Source: Spinacia oleracea (lineage: Eukaryota; Streptophyta; Magnoliopsida; Caryophyllales; Amaranthaceae). Taken from it: a stretch of DNA of 64,000 nucleotides. Position 1 is the first letter of the stretch, and every line of letters starts with the position of its first letter. The stretch covers positions 80,420,810 through 80,484,809 of the forward strand of contig NC_079489.1 in assembly GCF_020520425.1 (NCBI RefSeq), given 5' to 3'. A model generated the notes under the pieces. The model did no database searches. It was not told the origin of the DNA and was given only the letters and a program-made list of their open reading frames with translations. This document shows positions 16,701 through 60,473 of the stretch, in pieces. The position numbers were made by a program, and so were the translations under genes.

Positions 16701-17533
16701 TGTTGCGATTAAAGCGAGAATTAGAACAAACTTATCTGATTCGATGAACTGAACGAAGAACAATTGTTGCGTCGTGGACACCCACTGTCCTAAAAGACGA
16801 TTCCGCGCTACCTCCCGGTGCAGTAGAACAGAATGCGGTCGCCCTCCAGGATTAGCGCAACTCCGACGTTGTGTGCACTCACAAAGCCGGATGGAGTCAG
16901 AACGTATGCCCAAAACCGAGAGCAATTTTGTGTGAGAGTAAGAATGTGTTTTCGTATTTTGTGTGTATGATTTTCTGTGTGAAGGGAACTGAAACTCTGA
17001 TTTAAATAATTAGAAGGAAAGCATTGCAACAGACAAAAACGGCTGAGGGAATGAATGTTGCAACAGCCAAAAACGGTCAGAGACATTGAATGTAGTAACG
17101 GACGTAATTAATCCAACGGTTACGTAATCAATACAGATTCCCGTAACAATGACTTAAGCAAAACGGTCCAGTTACCAAAAAGAATAGGGTTGACCCACAA
17201 AACCCACCCCACGCCCGCGAACCGCATTCCCAAGTACCAAGTACCAAGTACCAAGTACCAAGTACCAAGTACCAAGTACCAAGGCCCAAGGCCCAAGGCC
17301 CAAGGCCCACGGCCCACGGCCCGCGGCCCGCGGCCCGCGGCCCGCGCCCGGCCCGGCGCGCGCGCGCGTGTGTGATGTGTCCACCCATACCATTCTCACA
17401 CTTTCTTAAACAAGAGTTACACTCATTCCCCAATTAATAAACAAGAGGAATATGAAGAGTTTTTCCAATGTGGGACTCTTGAATTTTCACTCACCCTTTT
17501 TTCCTTTGTGTTTCCCAATGAGAATTTCCAACA
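16701..17533 (-). repeat. Left (3') LTR of the complete copia
   Basis: Runs from TGTTGCGATT to TTTCCAACA on the plus strand. A TATA-like ATTTAAATA lies at 17000-17008 on the minus strand, as expected for the LTR promoter. It contains seven GTACCAA heptamers from about 17234, grading into GGCCCAA, GGCCCAC and GGCCCGC heptamers. Confidence 0.95.
17234..17350. repeat. Heptanucleotide tandem array in LTR
   Basis: Seven GTACCAA units followed by three GGCCCAA, two GGCCCAC and four GGCCCGC units, then a CG-rich tail ending in alternating CG. Open frames across it (rich in LGTWYLV on the minus strand) are repeat translation only. Confidence 0.9.
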
Positions 17534-22047: not shown

Positions 22048-22939
22048 TGTTGCGATTAAAGCGAGAATTAGAACAAACTTATCTGATTCGATGAACTGAA
22101 CGAAGAACAATTGTTGCGTCGTGGACACCCACTGTCCTAAAAGACGATTCCGCGCTACCTCCCGGTGCAGTAGAACAGAATGCGGTCGCCCTCCAGGATT
22201 AGCGCAACTCCGACGTTGTGTGCACTCACAAAGCCGGATGGAGTCAGAACGTATGCCCAAAACCGAGAGCAATTTTGTGTGAGAGTAAGAATGTGTTTTC
22301 GTATTTTGTGTGTATGATTTTCTGTGTGAAGGGAACTGAAACTCTGATTTAAATAATTAGAAGGAAAGCATTGCAACAGACAAAAACGGCTGAGGGAATG
22401 AATGTTGCAACAGCCAAAAACGGTCAGAGACATTGAATGTAGTAACGGACGTAATTAATGGTAATTAATCCAACGGTTACGTAATCAATACAGATTCCCG
22501 TAACAATGACTTAAGCAAAACGGTCCAGTTACCAAAAAGAATAGGGTTGACCCACAAAACCCACCCCACGCCCGCGAACCGCATTCCCAAGTACCAAGTA
22601 CCAAGTACCAAGTACCAAGTACCAAGTACCAAGTACCAAGTACCAAGTACCAAGTACCAAGTACCAAGTACCAAGTACCAAGGCCCACGGCCCACGGCCC
22701 ACGGCCCACGGCCCACGGCCCACGGCCCACGGCCCGCGGCCCGCGGCCCGCGCCCGGCCCGGCGCGCGCGCGCGTGTGTGATGTGTCCACCCATACCATT
22801 CTCACACTTTCTTAAACAAGAGTTACACTCATTCCCCAATTAATAAACAAGAGGAATATGAAGAGTTTTTCCAATGTGGGACTCTTGAATTTTCACTCAC
22901 CCTTTTTTCCTTTGTGTTTCCCAATGAGAATTTCCAACA
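22048..22939 (-). repeat. Right (5') LTR of the complete copia
   Basis: 892 bp, TG...CA, matching the left LTR base for base apart from tandem-repeat number. It has 13 rather than 7 GTACCAA units (22591-22681), seven GGCCCAC and three GGCCCGC units, and a 10-bp duplication GGTAATTAAT near 22460. A TATA-like ATTTAAATA is at 22347-22355 (minus). Confidence 0.95.
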
Positions 22940-32932: not shown

Positions 32933-32941
32933 CTAAAGGTT
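32933..32941. other. Candidate 9-bp target duplication of the MULE, left
   Basis: CTAAAGGTT here and at 45545-45553. Nine base pairs is the usual Mutator-superfamily target duplication. From each copy the distance to the shared ACC(C/T)GGTCCA terminal block is 17 bp on both sides, which supports the boundaries. Confidence 0.7.
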
Positions 32942-33469
32942 CAATTCCGCTTGCATGGACCCGGTCCACCATTAAGGTTACCGCTTGCATGGACCCGGTC
33001 CACCATTAAGGTTACCATGGACCAGGGTAATTAGTTAATTTGCAGCGCTGAACCGTTTGAAATCACGTGTTCCAAAATAACAGAATGCGCGAAACCCTTA
33101 AATTGAAATCTCTCTCCTCCAGCAGCAGCTTCTCTCTCCTACAGCAGCTTCTCTCTCCTCCAACAGCTTCTCTCTCTTCGAGCTTCAACAATGGAGGACG
33201 ATTTAATCGATTTGAATATCGATTTAAATCGCGCAATAGAAGAAAAATTGTATAATTATGACGGTAATATTCGAATCCTAATAACTAACTACGAAGAAAA
33301 TTATAGTAACTTTCATACTCATTGAGTAATTATTATTATTTTAGAAAACTTAGAGAATCATAGAGAAGTATATGATGTTGAAGATGAAGATGAAGGCACA
33401 TCTCAGCAAGTTATGGTTGCAAATCAATGTATTGAAGAAAGTATGATATAGTATCTTTTAATATATATA

Positions 33470-35125
33470 TAGTAACTGTTATATTGATATAGTTAACATA
33501 TTATAATTGCAGTAGTGTAACTAACATAGAAAGAGGAATTATATTTAACGCAGAGTAACTATAACATACAAAGAGAAACTATGTTTAATGTAGAGTAACT
33601 ATCTCATATAGACAGGACTTATAGTAACTGTAGAGTAACTATAAACTATAGAGACTAACTATATAAAATGAAGAGTAACTATCACATATAAAGAAGAACT
33701 ATATACTGTAGAGTAACTATCACATATAAACAAGAGTTATATTAAGTGTGAGTAACTATAATATATAAACAGTAACTATATAAAATAAAGAGTAACTATC
33801 ACATATAATGATAACTATATTTAAAATAAAGTAACTATAATTTATGAATGGTAACTATATTAATTATAGAGTAACTTCACATAACGAAATAATATAAATA
33901 AGAAATAACTACATTTAATTTATAGTAACTATAACATATAAAGAATAACTATATTAACTGTAGAGTAACTATAACAATCAATAGATCCTAAGTAAGTATG
34001 TTAAATATAGAGTAACTATTACATGTAAAGAGTAACTATATGAACTGTAGAGTAACTATAACAATCAATAGATCTTAAGTAACAATGTTAATTATAGAGT
34101 AACTATAACATATAAAAAGTAACTATATAAAATGAAGAGTAACTATCACATATAAAGAAGAACTATATACTGTAGAGTAACTATCACATATAAAAAGGAG
34201 TTATATTAACTGTGAGTAACTATAATATATAAACATTAACTGTATAAAATGAAGAGTAACTATCCCATATAATGATAACTATATTTATAATAAAGTAACT
34301 ATAATTTATGAAAGGTAACTATATTAATTATAGAGTAACTTCACATAACGAAATAATCTATATAAGCAATAAACTACATTTAACTTATAGTAACTATAAC
34401 ATATAAAGAATAACTATATTAACTGTAGAGTAACTATAACAATCAATAGATCCTAAGTAAGTATGTTAAATATAGAGTAACTATTACATGTAAAGAGTAA
34501 CTATATGAACTGTAGAGTAACTATAACAATCAATAGATCTTAAGTAACAATGTTAAATATAGAGTAACTATAACATATAAAAAGTAACTATATAAAATGA
34601 AGAGTAAATATCACATATAAAGAAGAACTATATACTGTAGAGTAACTATCACATATAAAAAGGAGTTATATTAACTGTGAGTAACTATAATATATAAAGA
34701 GTAACTGTATAAAATGAAGAGTAACTGTCCCATATAATGATAACTATATTTATAATAAAGTAACTATAATTTATGAAAGGTAACTATATTAATTATAGAG
34801 TAACTTCACATAACGAAATAATCTATATAAGCAATAAACTACATTTAACTTATAGTAACTATAACATATAAAGAATAACTATATTAACTGTAGAGTAACT
34901 ATAACAATCAATAGATCATAAGTAAATATATTAAATATAGAGTAACTATAACAAATAAAGAGTAACTATATGAACTGTAGAGTAACTATAACAATTAATA
35001 GATCTTAAGTAACTATGTTAATTATATAGTAACTATAACATATAAAGAGTAACTATATAAATATTAAGAGTAACTATATAAATATTAAGAGTAACTATCA
35101 CATTTAATGATAACTATATTTGTAT
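33470..35125. repeat. GTAACTAT repeat array in transposase intron 2, with about 465-bp higher-order unit
   Basis: The intron is almost wholly built of AGTAACTATA-type units every 15-35 bp. A higher-order unit recurs, marked by ATAACGAAATAAT at 33881, 34345 and 34810, giving a period of 464-465 bp. The 3' end of the intron restores a normal TTTGTATTTGTACAG acceptor. Confidence 0.9.
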
Positions 35126-36181
35126 TTGTACAGGTTCAATAATACATTCAATTGATACAAACCACAACATCTTTGAAAATCCAAATAATGAGCAAGAAGA
35201 AAACATTGATAAAGAATTAGATGGCAGTTTAATTGGAGAAGCAAGGAAAGCAACCGATGAGATTTATGATCTATATTGCAAACATGCTGCTATTATTGGT
35301 TTTAGTGTACGAAAAGGGAAGAATAGATATAAAGAAGGAACCACAATTGTTAATGGAAAATACTTCTACTGCTCTGCTGTGGAATAAGAGACCCTCCTAA
35401 AAACAAAGAACTAAAAAATGAAGATGATCAATCAGATGCAAAAAAGAAAGAAAGGAGAAAGAGGGTTATGATAACAAGAACAAAATGTGAAGCTCAAATA
35501 TTTGCAAAGAAGAATGAAAATGGAGATTTTGAAATAGAAAAGCATGTAGTGGTACATAATCACCCATTGACAAGAGAAATAAGTAATTATCTCCACCGAT
35601 CGGAACGACAAATGACAGAACCTAAAAAAGAAGCTATTGAGGCAATGTCAGAATGTGGTCTAAGACCAATGGAGTCTTATAGGTATATGTCAACAGAAAC
35701 TGGCGGAGACGACTGTGTAGGTCATACGATGATTGATCATCTAAACTACTGCTACAAGTTAAAAATGAAGCAAATTGATGGCAAGGATTCACAAACACTA
35801 GTGAACAAACTGTATGACATACAATCAATAGATCCCGAGTTCTTTTTCAGAGTAAGACTCAATGCTGAAGGAAAAGTTGAGTGCCTATTTTGGAGGGATT
35901 CTATGATGAGAGAAGATTACAAAATATATGGAGATGTTCTAGTTTTTGATACTACATTCAGAACCAATAAGTACAATCTCATATGTGCTCCATTTGTTGG
36001 TATCAATAACCATTGCAAAAACACAATGTTTGCTTGTGCTTTCATTGGGGATGAAACCACAGAATCTTTCGTTTGGGTGTTTGAAACTTTTCTGAAGGCT
36101 ATGGGAGGAAAGCACCCTATATCAATTTTCACTGATCAAGATGCAGCTATTGCTGCTGGAATAGAACAGGTACCTCTTCAT

Positions 36182-36560
36182 ATATTATAGTTACTATTTT
36201 GACAATATAGTAACTCTTTATAAAATATAGTTACTATTTTAACAATATAGTAACTCTTTATAAAATATAGTTACTATTTTGACAATATAGTATCTCTTTA
36301 TAAAATATAGTTACTATTTTGACAATATAGTAACTCTTAATTCAATATAGTTACTATTCTGAAATTATAGTAACACTTTATAAAGTATAGTTACTATTTT
36401 GACAATATAGTAAGTATTTATAAAATATAGTTACTATTTTGAAAATATAGAAACTCTTATTAAAATATAGTTAATATTTTGACAATATAGGAATTCTTTT
36501 ATAAAGTATAGTAACTCTTTATAAAATATAGTTACTATTTTGTGGAACTATATATATTCA
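36182..36560. repeat. ATAGTTAC/GTAACT array in transposase intron 3
   Basis: About eight copies of a roughly 40-bp unit, ATAGTTACTATTTTGACAAT followed by ATAGTAACTCTTTATAAAAT. Each unit carries the motif in both orientations, so it can fold as a hairpin. The array lies wholly between donor (36170) and acceptor (36574). Confidence 0.9.
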
Positions 36561-38019
36561 TTATTGTTTTTCAGGTTTTTCCTTCTTCAAGACACAGGTT
36601 ATGCTTGTGGCACTTGAGTAAAAATGCAAACAGTAGGTTTGGTTTATTGAAGTCTGATAAAAACTTCAAAAACGCATTCTACAAGTGTTTAAGTGGGTGT
36701 ATAACACCAAATGATTTTGAAGAAACTTGGAAATCTATGATCAACACTTTTAAGCTGGAAAAATATGACTGGTTCAACAGATTGTATGGTCTTAAAGAAA
36801 AATGGTGTACAGCTTTAAGTAAAGATTTTTTTTCTGCCGGTATACTTTCTTCACAAAGAAGTGAAAGTACAAACCATGCTGTTGGTTTTAAAGCAAATAA
36901 AAGTACAACATTAACAGAGTTCTATAGTATTTTTCAAGCTACAATAAATCGATGGAGAAAAACCGAAGAAAAAGACGACTTTGACTGTACAAGGGGAATA
37001 CCAACTTCAGAGCTAAGTATGAGTGCTATATTAAAACAGGCAGCAAATGTATACACGATAACACTTTTCCGTGATTTTGAAGAAGAGTTCAAGCTTTCTG
37101 TGGCAAGTAGTACAATGTTCAAGGGAAGTGTAGGAAGAACAGTGTTTTTTGAAGTGTGGATAGAAGGAATAACAGGTAAAAAAACTATAAATCTTTATTT
37201 AATATTTAGAGTAGATGTTCTTTTGAATAATATTACATTATATGTAAATAATCTAACAGGATCAAGCCAAGAAGTTCAATACAAAATGGAAGATTCAACC
37301 GTCACTTGCACATGCAAAAACTTTGAAGAATCTGGATGGTTGTGCTTCCATTGTTTAAGAATATTGCATTTACATTCAATCAATACAATTCCAGATCGTT
37401 ACATAACAACAAGATAGACTAGATATGCAAAGAAACAGATATGGGAAAGGGTTGATACAATAAAAAGGGAGAAAGGTGAAATCAACAATTTTACTGGTTG
37501 GAGATTACATATGATCAGAAGGTAATTTTTTCAATATACATTAGTTCATTTTCATATAGTTACAATTACAGTTGATATTTTACTTAACACTTAAACTCTA
37601 TACCACAGATACTATAACTTAATTTTGAAAGGGCATAAGATAGCAAAGGCCAGAAAATTTATCGAGGAGAAGTTTAAAATGGATAATAAAGCAGTTGATG
37701 AAATCATAAAAAAGGAAGAAGAAAGGAAGGCAAAAGAAGAAGCTGCAAAGATAGCAGAACAAGAAAAGGCAAAAGCTGAAGCACAACGAGAAACACAAGA
37801 CGGGGAATCAACTAATTCTGAAATAACAATTGTGCTTGATCCTGATCGTGCTAATACTAAAGGAAAGAGTAAGAAGAGAATAAAGGGTCAATATGACAAT
37901 TACAAGCAGCCATCAAAGAAAGGAAAAAAGAAACACAAAGAATTTGGATCCAAGACACCCAATATTCAATTATTTACACCTAAAGAACAACTATTTTAGT
38001 GATGTTCTTGTTTTATTAT

Positions 38020-38900
38020 CATATACAGTTACTTCAACATTTTTAAACAAATTTATTGAGTGTTTATACTATAGTTCTCCTTTACAATACATAGTTACTA
38101 TACATTCAGTATAGTAACTCTTTATAAACACACAATTTTTATTTATAGTAACTCGTTATAAAATAGTTACTATTTTGACAATATAATATCTCTTAATACA
38201 ATATAGTTACTATTCTGAAAATATAGTAACTCTTTATAAAATATAGTTACTATTTTGACAATATAGTAACTCTTAATAAAATATAGTTACTATTCTGATA
38301 ATATAGTAACTCTTTATAAAATATACTTACTTTTTTTACAATATAGTAACTTTTTATAAAATATAGTTACTATTTAAAAAATATAGTAACTTTTAGAACA
38401 ATATAGTTACTATTCTAAAAAAATATAGTAACGTTTTTTATGCAATCAAAATGACTTATAGTAACTATATGTTACTCAAAAATAAAATACCATAAAAAAG
38501 AGAGTAATTGTATCTTATTAAAGATAACTATATCTGTAAGATAGTAACTATTTGAATTTATACACAAAATTATTCACTTTTTATATATACCAACTCTTCA
38601 CATTTAGTGGTCACCCTTCTTTACATATAGTAACTCTATATAAAATATAGTTACTATTTTGATAATATAGTAACTTTCGTTATGCAATCATATGACTTAC
38701 AAATTTATAAGAGTAACTATATTTGAAGAAAGGTAACTATTTCATTCAAATAGAAACTATATTTAAAATAAGTAAATTGAACAATCTGACACAAATACTG
38801 CAAAAGTTATAATTACTCTCATATATCAAACAATTAAAAATCATTGAGAGTAACTATATCAAACTTAGAATTAATTGTACATTCTAAGTAGTAATTCGAC
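38020..38900. repeat. Same repeat in the gap between the convergent genes
   Basis: Both orientations of the motif (ATAGTTACTAT and ATAGTAACT) fill the interval between the transposase stop (37999) and the protease stop (38946), thinning towards the right. The 3' untranslated and polyadenylation regions of both genes would lie in it. Confidence 0.85.
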
Positions 38901-39654
38901 TACATACAAACACAAAAAATTAAATTGTTTTTTCAGCAATAATTATTAACCACGTGAAGCACCTCGTCCACGTGCCTTCCCGCGTATGCCTCCTCGGGTG
39001 CGTCTCCCGCCTTTGCCACGTCCTTTCCCTTCAACATTGACATCTGTCTCAGCTTCATCTTCTGTTTCAACATGTTTGGATTTCCTTGCTGAACTATTTC
39101 TTGCAACAATTTCAATTTTTGAAGCATCATTCATGTATTTCTGCGTCAACTCTTCCCTTTGTTTAATTAGGGCATCCAAAACATCTCGTTTCCTGTATTT
39201 CCTGAATGCAACCATTCGTTTCAGATATTCATCTCTGTAACAATTCAAATCTGACAACACAATGGTGCCACAAATACAAGCCCTGAGAAACTTCCTGAAA
39301 TCTTCCTGCAAATATTTGAACAGTAACTATTAGAATAAAAACAGTAACTATGATAACAAAACAATAACTATAAAGAATGAAAAGAAAAATATGAATAACA
39401 TTAATTATTTTTAACACAAAAACTTACATCTGCCAAGGGATCAAGGTCAAAAATCCCAACACCATCTTGTACCGTTTCAACACCATGAAAAACCATCATA
39501 AACATCATCAAATAGACACAACAGTCTTTGTCATAAGCACCTCGCTTCCAATTACCACCGACCGGGATAAATTTGAAGCTTTTAATATCTTCATGATGAA
39601 TGTTATCCATATTTTTCAGTAGTTTTTCCAATGAAGAACACTGTACAAAACATA

Positions 39655-42600
39655 TAGTAGGTATTATCAACATATAGTAACCTTTGAAATCATATAGTAA
39701 CTATTACCAACATATAGTAAGAATTAAAATCATATAGTAACTATTAAAATCATATAGTAACTATTACCAGTTGGTTAAAAATCATATAGTAACTATTAAA
39801 ATCATATAGTAACCATTAAAATCATATAGTAACTATTAAAATCATATAGTAACTATTAGAATCATATAGGAACCATTAAAATCATATAGTAACCATTACC
39901 AACATATAGTAACCTTTGGAATCATATAGTAACTATTTTATAACGATAGTAACTATTTTAAAAACATAGTTACTGTTTTAAACAAATAGTAACCTTGTCA
40001 AAAATATAGTTCCTCTAAAAAAGAAAGACTAATATAAAGGTAACTATAACATTTATAGAGTAACTACAACAACAAAAAAGGTAACTATAAAAAAAACTTA
40101 CCAAGACAGAATAAGCTTTCTTCCTTTGTTCCATCTCTTTTGGTTCCAGAAGCATATTATCAAAGAAATAGACACTTTTGTCTTTCATACTAATGACAAA
40201 CAGGTAATAATGCTTCGGGTCTTCAATCAGAACAGGAGCATAAATCTATATAAAAAAGAAAAACAACAGATTACAACTACAAGAAAGGAGACAAAAAAAA
40301 AAGATAATATGGTTATATAAAGAAAATATAAATCATACCATATTACAATCTTTCAACGATTGAACTCCATTTACATCTTTCACACCATAATTAAGACAAA
40401 CACACAATTCAGACAAGATTTTTTCATTGCCTGGTTTCTCAATCAAATCAGCAACATATTTCTGCAAATCAATATTAAAAGAAAAATTAAACAAAGGCCA
40501 AAAAAATTTAAAATAATTAACATTTTATATTATTAAAAATATAACTTACACAATATGTGCCACCTAAAAACAGCTTCTGAGGAGAACCAGCAGGATTCCT
40601 TTCATTTTCATTCAATAAAAAAGCCCAAGCTTCAATATGAATCAAAAGAATATCAAATGTGGAAGGAAGGGTCCACATGTCATCTCTTCCTACCGCAATA
40701 AAATGATTGTATTGTATAACTTTATCACTGAAAAACATAAAAAAGAAACAATAAATATGTCAGAAGAATTATAAAGGTTACTATAATAAATAAAAGGTAA
40801 CAATAGAATATAAAAGGTAAATATAGTAAACAAAAGGATACTATAGTATACAAATAGTAACTATATTATATGAAAGGTTACTATAAAGTTAGGGCAACAA
40901 CTTCACTTTTAAGAAAGGTAACTATATTATATGAAAGGTAACTATATTATATGAAGGGTTACTATAAATAATGAAAAGTAACTATATTATATGAAAGGTA
41001 ACTACATTATATGAAAGGTAACTATAATATATGAAAGGTAACTATAATATATGAATGGTAACTATATTATTTGAAAGGTAACTATAAATTATTAAATGAG
41101 AAAACTTCTACTTACTCAGTCAAAATACCCTCTCCATCATTCAGAGCAGCAAAGTCCACAGCTTCTTGAACAAATGCTGGAAGATGCCTCATTAAATCTT
41201 CAAATGCTATCATAAACGGAGACATAAACATCACATTTTCCTCTATGCCATAGACACTGACATTCACTCTTGATACAACATGGTTGTTAATGATGCATTT
41301 TTGAAATGCAGCCCACACGCGCTCATATTCTTCTATTTCTTCATCATCATCCTCCGTAATTTCTTTATCTTTGCTTTTCAAAGAATCAAGAACTGCATTT
41401 ATTTGAGTGTCAGGATCAACTTCTCGAATAATTGCTTCGGTAGATGTTGTTGCATCAACAACAGCAGCTGTAACAACTGCAGGCTCAGTTGGAACAACGG
41501 CAGAAGGTTGAGGGACAGCAGTAACAACTGGATTGTTACTTGAACCAAAAATGTCATCCCAACCATTTGGTAGATTCTTCACCAACTGATGAATCTCCAC
41601 CAACTCATCAACCATCTTTTGATAAGTGGAATTTTCCAAAATATCATCGCCATGGTTCTGCGAAGGCATTGAAGCCTTTAATTTGAACAGCTCTTCAGCA
41701 TGGATGGCTGAAACTACATCCAGATCTCTCTTCATCAACAACCACTGACCATGAAAATCCTAATAACAAAATACATAAATTTAAATATGGAACATAATAT
41801 GAAAATTTAACTAAAAATACAAAAAATATTATAAGAAAATGTATCTATAGTATATAAAGATAACTGTATAAAAGTTAACTATAGTATATGAAAAGTAACT
41901 ATAGAATATAAAAGATAACTATAGAAAATAAAAGATAACTATAGTAAATAAAAGGTAACTATAGTATATAAAAGATATCTATAGTATACACAAGATAACT
42001 ATAGTACATAAAACATATAGTAACTATTTATACCATATAGTAACTGTTTAAAACATATAGTTACTATTTATTAAAACAAAGTAATGGTAACATAGTGTAT
42101 GAAAGATAACTATAGAATATAAAAGATAACTATAGAATATAAAAGATAACTATATATACCTACATTTACTAAACCAAAGATAATGATAACAATAGTGTAT
42201 AAAAGATAACTATACTATATATTGACAAATATATCAATAATAAAATAAACTTACATCAGTGGCTTTAGAGAAAATTTCTTCATCTGTAGGATGAGAATTA
42301 GGGATTTCAAACTGAAGAATCCTAGGACGCCGACTTGGAATTCGACGCCCAACATAGGTCTGTTCAGCTCTTCCCCCACTGCTGCCTGCTTCATTTTCTT
42401 TCGAAATAGATTTGATTTGGGCCAAATCTATTTGACCATCAACAAAAACAAACTTTTTGGAATTGGATACTTCTCCTTCTCCAATATACCAGAACCATAT
42501 AATGCACTCATATTGGCATTTTCAGCATGAATCCGATCGGTTACCATCTTCGATGTCCAATGCTGAATAAGAGGTAATTGATCAGGAATACCACTGGAAT

Positions 42601-45025
42601 TCCTAAACTTAATCCTCTGAAAATACACAAGTTGCAAAAACACAACACAGCCTCCAAATGTCTTTTGATCTTTGCCTTTCAATAAACAATTTTTAAATTT
42701 CACTGTTTCCTCACATAATACGTCAAGAACGTATTTACACCAATTGTATTTGGAAATCATTTTAGGATCTTCCAAAGCCTTAGCCAATCTCAAATCTACA
42801 GTCCTATTGGCTGTTGGAGTAAAAAATATAGAGAAAGCAACAAAAACAAATAATTGTTTAAACAGATCACCACCATCTGTCAACAATTTAATCTTGTCCT
42901 CAAGCAACCTTATAGGAATTTGAGCATTGACCTCTTCAAAACCGAACTCTTTTCTCCACTTGATCTTCAAATCAAAATCAGGATTAGTGGAATTGCGCCC
43001 ACATTTAACCCCTTCAACCTCCAACTCAGAAAGGGGGAGCATAAACAAATCGTACACATCATAATCAGTGATTTCAAATTGCTTGGAATCACTGATTGTA
43101 AACAGAGAACTCACACCATCAAAGCACTTGATGCACCAGTACATCATCTGAGTATTTTTTCGACTTAATTGAAGGCCTAACAATCCTCCAAACCCTATCT
43201 CTTGAACAGCTGCCTTTTGATCAGGAGAGAAGTCTTTAATTAATTTACACAATGATCCTCCTGAACATTGTGTATCAAAATTAAACCTGAAAAAAATGAA
43301 TAATGAAAGTAAGTCAGCTTTATATATCATATAGTAACTACTTAGAACACATAGTAACTGTTTAAAACATGTAGTAACTATTAGAAACATATAGTTACTA
43401 TTTAGAAAATATAGTAACTGTTTAAAACATATAGTAACCTTTCAAATAATATAGTAACTATACTACACATAGTACACATAGAACCTAGTTATAACATATA
43501 GTAATTATTTAGAAGATATAGTAACTGTTTAAAACATAAAGTAACTATTTAGAACATATAGTAACCTTTGATATAGTCAATATTGTAAACATAGTACACA
43601 TAGAACCTATTTAGAACATATAGTAACTGTTTAAAACATATAGTAACCTTTGGAGTCATATAGTAACTATTGTAAACATAATACACATAGAACCTATTTA
43701 GAACATATTTCAAAACATATAGTAACTATTTAAAACATATAGTAACCTTTGGAATCATATAGTAACTATTTAAAACATGTAGTAACCTTTGGAATCATAT
43801 AGTAACTGTTTACAACATATAGTAACCTTTGGAATCATATAGTAACTGTTTACAACATATAGTAACTATTTTAAAAAATATAGTAACTATTTAGAACATA
43901 GTAACTATTTTGAACATATAGTAACTATTTAGAACAATTAACTAAATTAAACTAACACTTACACGATAGGCAGGCCATCAGCGCCAACTTCTTTCAAAAC
44001 TTGTGAATGAAGTTGATGAGATTCAGGCTGTGGAACGTCAACTAGAGAAGAATTTTGTAAAACTAGTTGATTAGGTTGTTCTTCTTCAATTGCTTCTTTT
44101 TCAGATACAAGCGCAATTGCTTTTGATTTCGGACTGCCAGCCTTTTTGTTCTTCTTTATAGACACAGATTCCTTAGCAATTGAAACAAAACAATTATAAA
44201 ACAAAATATTACTATATAGTAACCATTACAATCACATAGTAACCAATAAAATCATATAGTAACCTTTCAAATAATATAATAAATACATAAACATAGAGTA
44301 TCCATTTAAATCAGATAGTAACTATTTATTCGACATAGTAACTGTTTAATTTTATAATAACATTTAAGAAAGATAGTAACTATTTATAACACATAGTTAC
44401 TGTTTTAAAGTTATATTTACTTTCTAAAAACGATAGTAACTATTTATAACACATAGTTCCTATTTTAAAGTTTATTTACTTTCTAAAAACACAGTAACTA
44501 TTTATAACACATATTTACTGTTTTAAAGTTATATTTACTTTCTAAAAAAGATAGTAACTAATTATAACACATAGTTACTATTTTAAAGTTAATTTACTTT
44601 CTAAAAAGACAGTAACTATTTTAAAAACATAGTTACTGTTTTAGAAATATAGTAACCTTTTAAAAATATAATTACCCTAAAAAACTACGAACAAACCAGT
44701 CACTAATAAAAACACTTAAAAACTTCGTAACATAAAATAAAAAGTAACTATATCTTTGAAACAGTAACTTCAAACAAAAACCACAAACATTTCAATAATT
44801 CAAAATCAAACAAAAAATAAGTTCGAATTACTAGAAATTTCTTCAGAAACAGCAAATAAAAGGTAACTATATCTTTGAAACAGTAACTGCATGAAACACT
44901 AAACCTAATTTCAGCAAAAACCACAAACATTTCAATAATTCAAAATCAAACAAAAAATAAGTTCGAATTAACAGGAATTTCTTCAGAAACAACAAATAAA
45001 AGGTAACTATATCTTTGAAACAGTA
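39655..45025. repeat. Same repeat in introns of the Ulp1-like gene
   Basis: Separate arrays occupy the introns at about 39655-40090, 40760-41100, 41830-42240, 43325-43945 and 44205-45025. Units are of the ATATAGTAACTATTT, AAAGGTAACTATA and AAAGATAACTATAG types. Exons between them are free of the motif. Array orientation and spacer text differ between introns. Confidence 0.85.
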
Positions 45026-45120
45026 ACTGCATGAAACACTAAACCTAATTTCAGCAAAAACCACAAACATTTCAATAATTCAAAATCAAACAAAAAATAA
45101 GTTCGAATTACCAGGAATTT
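44745..45120. repeat. About 140-bp triplication covering the exon 1 splice donor
   Basis: The block from CAAAAACCACAAACATTTC to GAATTTCTTCAGAAAC recurs at 44775, 44914 and 45054, a period of 139-140 bp. Each copy includes the end of exon 1 and its GT donor, so the gene has up to three donor copies. Confidence 0.8.
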
Positions 45121-45479
45121 CTTCAGAAACAGCATTTGGCCTTCTTCCTCGCCTTCGAGGAGCTTCAACAGCCATTTCAGCGACGGAATTGTCGAATTCA
45201 AGTTTCTTCGCTGCCGGTTTCTTCGCTGCCGGATTCTTCGGTGCCGCTTTCTTCACCATTTTTTAGAAAAAAGAAGATCGGAAGAGTAATTTGATGCAAA
45301 TGGATGAAAATAATCACTAAAATTAAATTTGAAATGGAGAGAGAAATTCAGAGAGAAGTTCGAAAGCAGTTTAGAGAGAGAAGTTGAGTGAGAAGTTCAA
45401 AAGCCGGGAAAAAGGAAATTAAAAAAAAACATATATATAATTAGGAAAGCACGTGACAGTTACACGCAACTTCTCGCAC

Positions 45480-45544
45480 GCAACAACGCAAAGACTATAA
45501 TACCCTGGTCCATAGCATGGACCAGGTTTACTATAGTGTAAATA
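45480..45544. repeat. Right terminus of the MULE
   Basis: TACCCTGGTCCATAGCATGG and ACCAGGTTTACTATAG. In inverted orientation they match the left block CATGGACCAGGGTAATTA and its neighbour CCCGGTCCA. Confidence 0.65.
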
Positions 45545-45553
45545 CTAAAGGTT

Positions 45554-49059: not shown

Positions 49060-49375
49060 TAATTTCCCGATTCCGGAATTCATTTCCGATACGAACAATA
49101 TTTAACATTTCCGATTCCGGAATTAATTTCCGTCTCGAACAAATATTTAATATTTCCGTTTCCGGAATTGTTTTCCGATTCCGATAATATTTCCGATTCT
49201 GACAATATTTCCGTTTCCGGCAATATTTCCGATTCCGGCAATATTTCCATTTCCGATAATATTTTCCGATACGTACCATGTTTCCGTTTCCGGCAACATC
49301 TACGACTTGGATAATATTAATATTTCAGATACGATCCATATTTCCGTTTCCGGCAATATCATCGTTTCCGGAGTA
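49060..49375. repeat. TTTCCG(A/T)TTCCGG repeat in LTR
   Basis: A degenerate array, about 18 bp per unit, of AATATTTCCGATTCCGGCAA and variants. A diverged copy is at 59168-59490 in the other LTR. Its antisense frames are Asn/Arg/Lys/Tyr-rich and are not genes. Confidence 0.8.
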
Positions 49376-58403: not shown

Positions 58404-60473
58404 TGATACATATGAAGAAAACATAAATCATGCGGAAAAACCTTAATGCCAGGAAATATATTATTTACATATAATCATATAGCATAATTTATATGCATAC
58501 ACTTTGTAGCGTGCCCTCCCTAGCTGCGCCCGAACCGAACAAGAACAAGTCTTTAGGACTCCAAGTGTCGTCCCTCCGTAGATAGTCCACAGCACGTCCG
58601 GATCCGCCTTAAGATTGACCAACTAGAATCGCCCTTAAGGTACTATATATTTTCGGCTAACAGGGCAAGAATATGGCTGATTTTTCTACTAAAAAATCTT
58701 AGCTTTTTATTGTTTGAATACTTGGAATTTTGTCCATAAATTGTGACCCTAGGCACCTATTTATAGAGTTATGGAAAAGGACTTGGAATCCTATTAGGAT
58801 ACGAATTAATTAAATTAGAATCCTAGTAGAACTCTTATATAATTAATTTATCTTTTAGGATTAGGAATTTAATCATTAAACGAATCATATACGCTTTAGG
58901 TTTCGTATGTGAACACAAACACACACGCACAGCAGCCCACGAGGGGCGCCATGCGCGCGCGCGCACAGCCCGAGCAACGCAGCCTAAATGCCACGAAGCC
59001 CACGACTGCCGCAGCCTTGGGCGCGCGCTGGGCCTACCTTGCGGTGGGCCTGGCGCAGCCTTGGGCTGGCGTGTTGTGGCGCACGTTTCCCTTGCTGGGC
59101 GATGGCCCGGCTTCGTGCTGGGCCTTCGTCTGGCAGGCCTCGTCCGATGCTAATTCGTACGATACGCTTCCGATTAAATTCCCGATTCCGGAATTTATTT
59201 CCGATACGAACAATATTTAATAATTTCGATTCCTGAATGAATTTCCGTTTCGAACAAATATTTGATATTTCCGTTTCCGGAATTATTTTTCGATTCCGAT
59301 AATATTTCCGATTCTGACAATATTTCAGTTTCCGGTAATATTTCCGATTCCGGCAATATTTCCATTTCCGATAATATTTTCCGATACGTACCATGTTTCC
59401 GTTTCCGGCAACATCTACGACTTGGATAATATTTATATTTCCGATACGATCCATATTTCCGTTTCCGGCAATATCATAGTTTCCGGAGTATTCATTTCTT
59501 GCCTTTGACGATCTCAGCTCCCACTGGAACCAAGATCCGTCGATTCCGAATATCCATAGATGGAGTATTTAATGCCATTAAATACTTGATCCGTTTACGT
59601 ACTATTTGTGTGACCCTACGGGTTCAGTCAAGAGTAAGCTGTGGATTAATTTAATTAATTCCACTTGAACTGAAGCGGCCTCAAGCTAGGCATTCAACTC
59701 ACTTGATCTCACTGAATTATTAACTTGTTAATTAATACTGAACCGCATTTATTAGACTTAATATTATATGCATACTTGGACCAAGGGAATTATTTCCTTC
59801 AGTCTCCCACTTGTCCTTAGGGACAAGTGTGCATTTCCTAATTCCTTTGTCGCTTGATGCTTGCTCTTGAACATAAGGTAAGAGTTGTCATCCTTATTAT
59901 GTCCAGAGGTATTTCTCGGTTTCGGAGTTCAACTGATCAAATAAATCATAGCCTATGATTCATCCGAGCACGACCATGCATTTTACAGTTTCTAGCTCTC
60001 CGAGTGGCCTTGTACAACTTTTAAGCATCTCATCCCGATTTATGGGAGGACAATCCCAATCTTGCGATCTTGAGATTAGACTTCGTTTGATAGGTGATTA
60101 CCTGAACATTGCCTTTATAGCCTCCTTTTACGGTGCGACGGTTGGTCAACGTCAAAGTAACCAGTTCTCAAACAAGTAATCTCAAATCACTCAGGTATTG
60201 AGGATTTAGTGTCTAATAATTTTAATGAAATTTACTTATGACAGATTTTCATCTCTTATAGTAAAGTTTCATAGGTCTGTCCGACACTAGTCTTCCCAAA
60301 GTAAGTATCTATGCAAATGATTACGACATTGCCATGTCCACATAGTTCAAGAAACAGAACTACTAGTCATCTTGCATTCTAGTCGTCTAACGTTTTCTAT
60401 GCGTCCATCTTTATAGAAAACTCCGACCAGGGACCATTTTCAACTTTTGACATTCAAGTTCACTTGATAGACA
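58404..60473 (-). repeat. 5' LTR of the decayed copia (right copy)
   Basis: 2,070 bp closely matching 48290-50359, including TATA box (58766-58757), GC-rich island (58915-59150), TTTCCG array and TTGATAGACA end. It lacks the last 11 bases, TGTTAGGTTAT, of the left copy. It is followed on the right directly by another copia interior, so it may serve two elements. Confidence 0.8.

Follow-up and report, generated by a model that had tools for sequence, protein, structure and literature searches.

The introns of a spinach transposable element carry dense arrays of a short DNA word, and we consider it likely that these arrays are binding platforms for an anti-silencing protein that the element itself encodes. 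The element is a Mutator-like element (MULE) of the non-terminal inverted repeat (non-TIR) type. It lies in a 64-kb stretch of Spinacia oleracea DNA (NC_079489.1, positions 80,420,810 to 80,484,809), referred to here as the window, and we call its family A. The predicted protein would resemble the VANC proteins of Arabidopsis VANDAL elements, and is most likely the product of the second of the element's two genes. This reading is favoured because the host is a non-TIR MULE, gene 2 bears a C48/Ulp1 domain, the word occupies noncoding DNA only, related families carry words of their own, the word recurs at a characteristic spacing, gene 2 diverges faster than the transposase gene and the element is young.

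The word, read as GTAACTAT or ATAGTTAC, has 113 exact matches in the window (90 on the forward strand and 23 on the reverse), all between positions 33555 and 45010. By chance 2.54 would be expected, and the maximum across 100 shuffles was 7. The exact matches sit in a wider, nearly palindromic pattern, ATAGTAACTAT, and we write the family A word as ATAGTWACTAT with GTAACTAT as its core. Their placement was determined using gene models based on open reading frames (ORFs) and splice signals. Introns hold 100 exact matches in 5,615 bp and the gap between the two genes holds 13 in 946 bp. There is no exact match in the exons of either gene model (5,508 bp), in the element ends (249 and 285 bp) or in the 51,397 bp of the window outside the element. 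The initial annotation, made from the sequence of the window, had described over a hundred copies within one MULE and an avoidance of exons; both descriptions stand. When 1 mismatch was allowed, 286 matches were found in the element, 4 in exons and 40 outside the element. All nine noncoding blocks longer than 110 bp carry the exact word, in either orientation and despite differing spacers, and three 7-mers of the word are common to all nine. Six of the seven introns of at least 388 bp contain 8 to 44 exact matches, and the seventh, gene 2 intron 3, contains 4. The 122-bp intron contains 2, and five introns shorter than 100 bp contain 0 or 1 each.

The host element is 12.6 kb long (32942..45544), begins with CAATTCC and ends with GTGTAAATA. 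These ends agree with those of three other full-length copies, which align to window positions 32981 to 45544 or 45550. A 9-bp target-site duplication (TSD), CTAAAGGTT, flanks the element at 32933..32941 and 45545..45553. Perfect 9-bp TSDs, read by eye from the flanks, were present in all four full-length copies examined (CTAAAGGTT, ATTAGGTAC, ATGGAGTAG and ATATAGACT). Comparison of the two end regions in inverted orientation gave a match of at most 12 nt (13 nt as overlapping pieces), located internally, near 33017 and 45501. With a transposase, a 9-bp TSD and no or degenerate TIRs, the host is a VANDAL-type non-TIR MULE. At its left end, a 34-bp unit (32947-33016) is doubled in the window copy and single in the three other full-length copies.

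Gene 1 (33191..37999, forward strand, six exons in the model) encodes the transposase. Its Pfam matches are all above cut-off: MULE (PF10551, E 2.8e-18), FAR1 (E 7.5e-7) and SWIM (E 1.5e-4). Gene 2 (38946..45259, reverse strand, nine exons) has a DUF1985-like exon 3, a Peptidase_C48 (Ulp1) domain in exons 7-8 and an RG-rich C-terminus. Peptidase_C48 (PF02902) scored 29.7 bits (E 7.4e-7; cut-off 20.7) when exons 5-9 were taken from another copy; a single exon from the window gave E 0.008, below cut-off. The window copy is probably defective, both genes being broken. In gene 1 the frame is broken in exon 3, near 35.38 kb, and position 37415 carries an in-frame TAG; in gene 2 the break lies near 42.47 kb. 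Exon 2 of gene 2 ends more plausibly at 43963 than at the modelled 43965, with no effect on the motif counts; the junction of exons 1 and 2 is out of frame and should be taken as provisional.

The wider occurrence of the element was assessed by searching an assembly whose 242 contigs total 894,210,420 bases. There were at least 141 matches to the transposase exon (139 of 1,437 candidates scored) and at least 120 to the gene 2 exon (119 of 2,968 candidates scored). Ten of the 141 copies, hand-picked to range from 99% to 81% identity, were fetched, some as partial elements. According to the initial annotation, absence of the motif from other family copies would refute its reading; the word was found in all ten, at 21 to 111 matches per 14.5 kb and 708 in total. 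Non-exon element DNA (45,244 bp) accounts for 701 of these and exons (41,589 bp) for 1, the remaining 6 lying beyond the part covered by BLAST (58,177 bp). All seven of these exceptions come from the most diverged of the ten copies. Three full-length copies differ pairwise by 0.34-0.39%, which indicates that family A is young. In one of them, gene 2 exons 2-9 are open to the stop with no internal stop codon, and among the matches listed many other copies of both searched exons are also free of internal stops.

Genome-wide, the pattern GTAACTAT-N12-GTAACTAT occurs 3,327 times, against 4 for the reversed pattern. Most places fetched are copies of the family A element, and at least one array is not. 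The latter (L002-L008; G000:C1:2570195-2573871) is dense in GTAACTAT, has other spacers and gave no tblastn match at E <0.1 to the proteins of the window MULE; it may represent a non-autonomous element or a different family that uses GTAACTAT. The claim that the motif occurs inside the MULE only thus holds within the window and fails for the genome.

Sister families were taken from five places among the more distant matches. Transposase identity is 58% for family B, 62% for C, 63% for D and 65% for E; family F, represented by 7 kb containing gene 2 alone, has 42% gene 2 identity. The over-represented word is TAGTTAAC in B, GTTAAAGT in C, AAGTTTACC in D and TAGTGACC in E. Exact counts, in the word order GTAACTAT/TAGTTAAC/GTTAAAGT/AAGTTTACC/TAGTGACC, are 113/2/0/0/0 for family A, 0/63/0/0/0 for B, 0/0/80/0/0 for C, 0/1/0/5/1 for D, 3/0/1/0/11 for E and 1/0/0/0/2 for F. 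Motif and family therefore correspond almost diagonally, strongly for A, B and C and weakly for D and E. Since each word was picked from its own family the diagonal arises partly by construction, whereas the near-empty off-diagonal does not. The published VANC21 and VANC6 words have only 0-2 matches per family. On one strand, AGT is common to all seven words: AGTAACTA, AGTTAAC, AGTTAAAG, AGTTTACC and AGTGACC (families A to E), AGTATTAY (VANC21) and AGTTGTMC (VANC6). The common AGT is perhaps a conserved contact.

The layout of the arrays recurs along with the change of word. Same-strand spacing peaks at 20 bp in A, where matches lie mainly 20 or 40 bp apart, and at 21 bp in both B and C. Tandem arrays have a period of 21 bp in B, 21 bp in C and 22 bp in D. 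The genome holds 2,558 pairs of the family B word and a single instance of the reversed pattern. Family C is multi-copy: a search with its gene 2 exon gave 143 matches, among them members of other families. No gene 2 match adjoins the fetched family B transposase among the matches listed, the B flank being outside the fetch. In families C, D and E, exon 3 identity to family A is 41-45% for gene 2 and 60-63% for the transposase. Hence, gene 2 appears to diverge faster than the transposase. An ordinary satellite, which the initial annotation had set up as the alternative, does not fit because the arrays are interrupted by exons and the words of sister families are different.

We propose that the gene 2 protein recognises the short word specific to its family, ATAGTWACTAT in family A. 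Dense repeats about two helical turns apart (20 bp in A and 21-22 bp in the sister families) would allow many molecules to bind along the element. The bound protein would then strip DNA methylation from the element's own copies, permitting expression of the transposase and of gene 2. Introns and the gap would host the sites because tandem duplication can multiply the word there and leave the protein unaltered. We infer both binding of the word by gene 2 and removal of methylation by that binding. The tie to evasion of silencing suggested in the initial annotation is probable. Its specific idea, a decoy against silencing, came near, but the data are better matched by a landing platform for an anti-silencing protein that the element encodes.

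Several observations weigh against this proposal. Families D and E carry few words (9 and 31 one-mismatch matches), and 5 of the 31 in E are in coding DNA. The 7-kb gene 2 stretch of family F is without an array. DUF1985 does not reach the Pfam cut-off in any family scanned (A, C, D and F). For exon 3 of family A the values are E 0.0021 in the window and E 0.0075 in another copy, and family F gene 2 gives E 0.00039. The family D exon scores above cut-off as a plant mobile domain (PMD), with DUF1985 at E 0.045, and the family C exon is without any Pfam match. A Pfam scan of gene 2 exons 3-9, with exons 1 and 2 outside its range, found no DUF287. The ORF list, used without a VANB query sequence, contains no further long ORF outside the two gene models. 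Gene 2 pieces compared with solved structures in the PDB did not recover a VANC; the best match, from one search, was a DNA repair phosphohydrolase (E 0.004). Single-sequence folding of the exon 3 domain was unusable, with a mean predicted local distance difference test score (pLDDT) of 38. For all family A pairs within 250 bp, the pooled helical phase is best at 9.5-10.25 and 19.5-20 bp, with no peak at 10.5 or 21 bp.

Nor is selection on the GTAACTAT word cleanly demonstrable. In young copies, a symmetric count shows no protection of the motif, with 10 of 896 motif columns variable against 77 of 5481 spacer columns (p 0.64). Comparing neighbouring units gave results that are mixed by array, the spacer agreeing more than the motif in three of eight. 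In older copies, 104 of 683 motif columns vary against 913 of 3074 in the spacer, a gap that misaligned array register could cause. An apparent protection of the motif in young copies (10 of 2,590 motif cells against 204 of 18,095 spacer cells) was rejected, the sites having been chosen from the window copy.

The arrays themselves differ in size and unit. The largest fills gene 1 intron 2 (33441..35133), with 44 exact matches, all on the forward strand, and contains a 465-bp unit present 3.1 times at 96%. Gene 1 intron 3 (36170..36574) has 8, all on the reverse strand, in a 40-bp unit. The array between the 3' ends of the two genes (38000..38945) has 13, of which 5 are on the forward strand and 8 on the reverse. 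Within gene 2, exact matches number 2 in intron 8 (39306..39427, 122 bp), 11 in intron 7 (39641..40101), 8 in intron 4 (40728..41115), 4 in intron 3 (41760..42254, together with 8 GATAACT-type units), 11 in intron 2 (43287..43964) and 11 in intron 1 (44172..45111). The 5' part of the intron 1 array (45.1-44.8 kb) is a 140-bp tandem duplication of 2.6 copies (44775-45134), through which the last part of gene 2 exon 1 is carried, along with the splice donor of that exon, into the intron. Each array had been said to have its own spacer text. The spacers do differ; even so, gene 1 intron 3 and the intergenic array have an exact 49-nt stretch in common, and several gene 2 introns have exact stretches of 26-38 nt in common. 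Because of these stretches, the arrays appear to have seeded one another or to have a common origin.

Such copying is what would be expected of passive tandem-repeat growth, in which the AT-rich introns of a young MULE gain slippage repeats, and the word is an ancestral unit spread by duplication and gene conversion. The recent 465-bp duplication in the largest array also agrees with this explanation, as do the unprotected motif columns of young copies and the three arrays whose neighbouring units match better in the spacer. However, passive growth does not readily give the exact word, in either orientation, in nine of nine noncoding blocks whose spacers differ. The sister families, moreover, repeat the layout with another word at 20-22-bp spacing, which is hard to obtain without a reader of the word. 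Passive growth would thus account for copying between arrays and not for the parallel layouts of sister families, and we judge it improbable.

A still smaller chance attaches to the possibility that GTAACTAT marks internal binding sites for the gene 1 transposase, as the initial annotation had also suggested. FAR1 and SWIM are DNA-binding-type domains, but the word is absent from the end regions (249 and 285 bp), which are where a transposase has to act, and this argues against such sites. Families that retain 60-63% identity in transposase exon 3 also use an entirely different word.

Least likely of all, and only slightly less so, is a device acting in RNA (a splicing enhancer, decoy splice sites or hairpins that govern intron retention). 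The word does resemble a donor and a branch point, yet it is mostly sense in gene 1 (44 sense, 9 antisense) and mostly antisense in gene 2 (6 sense, 41 antisense), which argues against a role in RNA; it is also present in the gap, and GTAACT is not found among the 13 modelled donors. The proposed splicing or read-through control is therefore not borne out. Folding was no more consistent: among three stretches (the whole of gene 1 intron 3, 589 nt of gene 2 intron 1 and 601 nt of gene 1 intron 2), two were more stable than shuffles (z -5.0 and -2.95), but the 601-nt stretch of the largest array folded worse than all 20 shuffles (z +2.87).

Binding platforms thus remain our preferred interpretation, and family B may bear on how they spread. 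At three places that lie within single exons in family A, the family B transposase has introns of 384, 327 and 705 bp (L052 3063-3446, 4827-5153 and 5549-6253), each consisting mostly of array units. The second of these has TTAACTAATT-type units and not the exact word, and one donor (AG/GTAACTT) lies at an array start. By tblastn, the first intron is absent in A, D and E (C is ambiguous), and the other two are absent in A, C, D and E. The joint of the third is not clean in the copy read. At about 5925-6265 of L052, in this third intron, the sequence gatgtcacaatatgcaggatg, which comprises the acceptor and the opening bases of the following exon, is present twice, a copied exon edge inside an array. 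It is conceivable, though doubtful, that target-site arrays grow inside coding DNA and become introns, so that the platform spreads through the gene and the protein is unharmed. Loss of these introns from the other families is an alternative of the same weight as their birth in B.

Two other repeats were seen. One TTTCCGATTCCG-type tandem repeat occurs at 49062-49318 and 59174-59446 of the window and beside family F (L051 6049-6322), and is probably part of a dispersed repeat. Paired heptamer arrays, CCAAGTA then CCACGGC, occur twice about 5.4 kb apart (17230-17365 and 22587-22749).

If our interpretation is correct, spinach, far from Arabidopsis, has a VANC-type system of sequence-specific anti-silencing. 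The main interest would be that three strong and two weaker motif systems exist side by side in one genome. The specificity code could then be read from natural protein-DNA pairs, as where GTTAAAGT replaces GTAACTAT, and could be used for building locus-specific demethylation tools. We found no earlier report in the open-licence literature of these motifs, or of several motif sets in one non-Arabidopsis genome. The kind of system is already known from Arabidopsis VANDAL and VANC; its recurrence in spinach with several words would be what is new. Among VANCs, the domains DUF1985, DUF287 and Ulp1 have reportedly been gained and lost, and specificity is said to be set by motif sequence, density and helical periodicity.

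VANC21 of VANDAL21 (Hiun) binds YAGTATTAY, present as dense and often tandem repeats in the noncoding DNA of VANDAL21, introns included; coding probes without the motif bind poorly (Hosaka 2017). These repeats expand and contract with fast turnover, and VANC diverges faster than VANA (Hosaka 2017). RNA-directed methylation attacks the same noncoding regions as VANC (Sasaki 2023). The spinach element is likewise a non-TIR MULE whose short word is dense, tandem and noncoding, including in introns. Conversely, its motif differs, two genes are seen rather than three, and it has a C48 domain and no DUF287 in exons 3-9, whereas published VANCs carry DUF1985 and DUF287 (Hosaka 2017, Fig. 5). The spinach motif is also missing from the terminal regions, whereas VANC21 also occupies the terminal noncoding DNA of VANDAL21 (Hosaka 2017). 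A crystal structure of VANC21 was mentioned in 2022 as unpublished. VANC6 recognises another word, AGTTGTCC/AGTTGTAC, in other targets (VANDAL6/VANDAL8), with in vitro binding reported (Hosaka 2017). This second motif system in a related family parallels the family-specific words of spinach; the spinach word differs. According to a 2026 review, Ulp1-bearing VANCs (KIU) occur in non-TIR MULEs, and the Arabidopsis KIU/Kaonashi group has three genes (PMC13317346). The spinach motifs are not among the printed ones that were compared, and spinach differs in host and in showing two genes rather than three. Even so, the KIU/Kaonashi group is the nearest architectural match to the spinach element: both are non-TIR MULEs with family-specific motifs, and in both the second gene combines a DUF1985-like domain with an Ulp1 domain.

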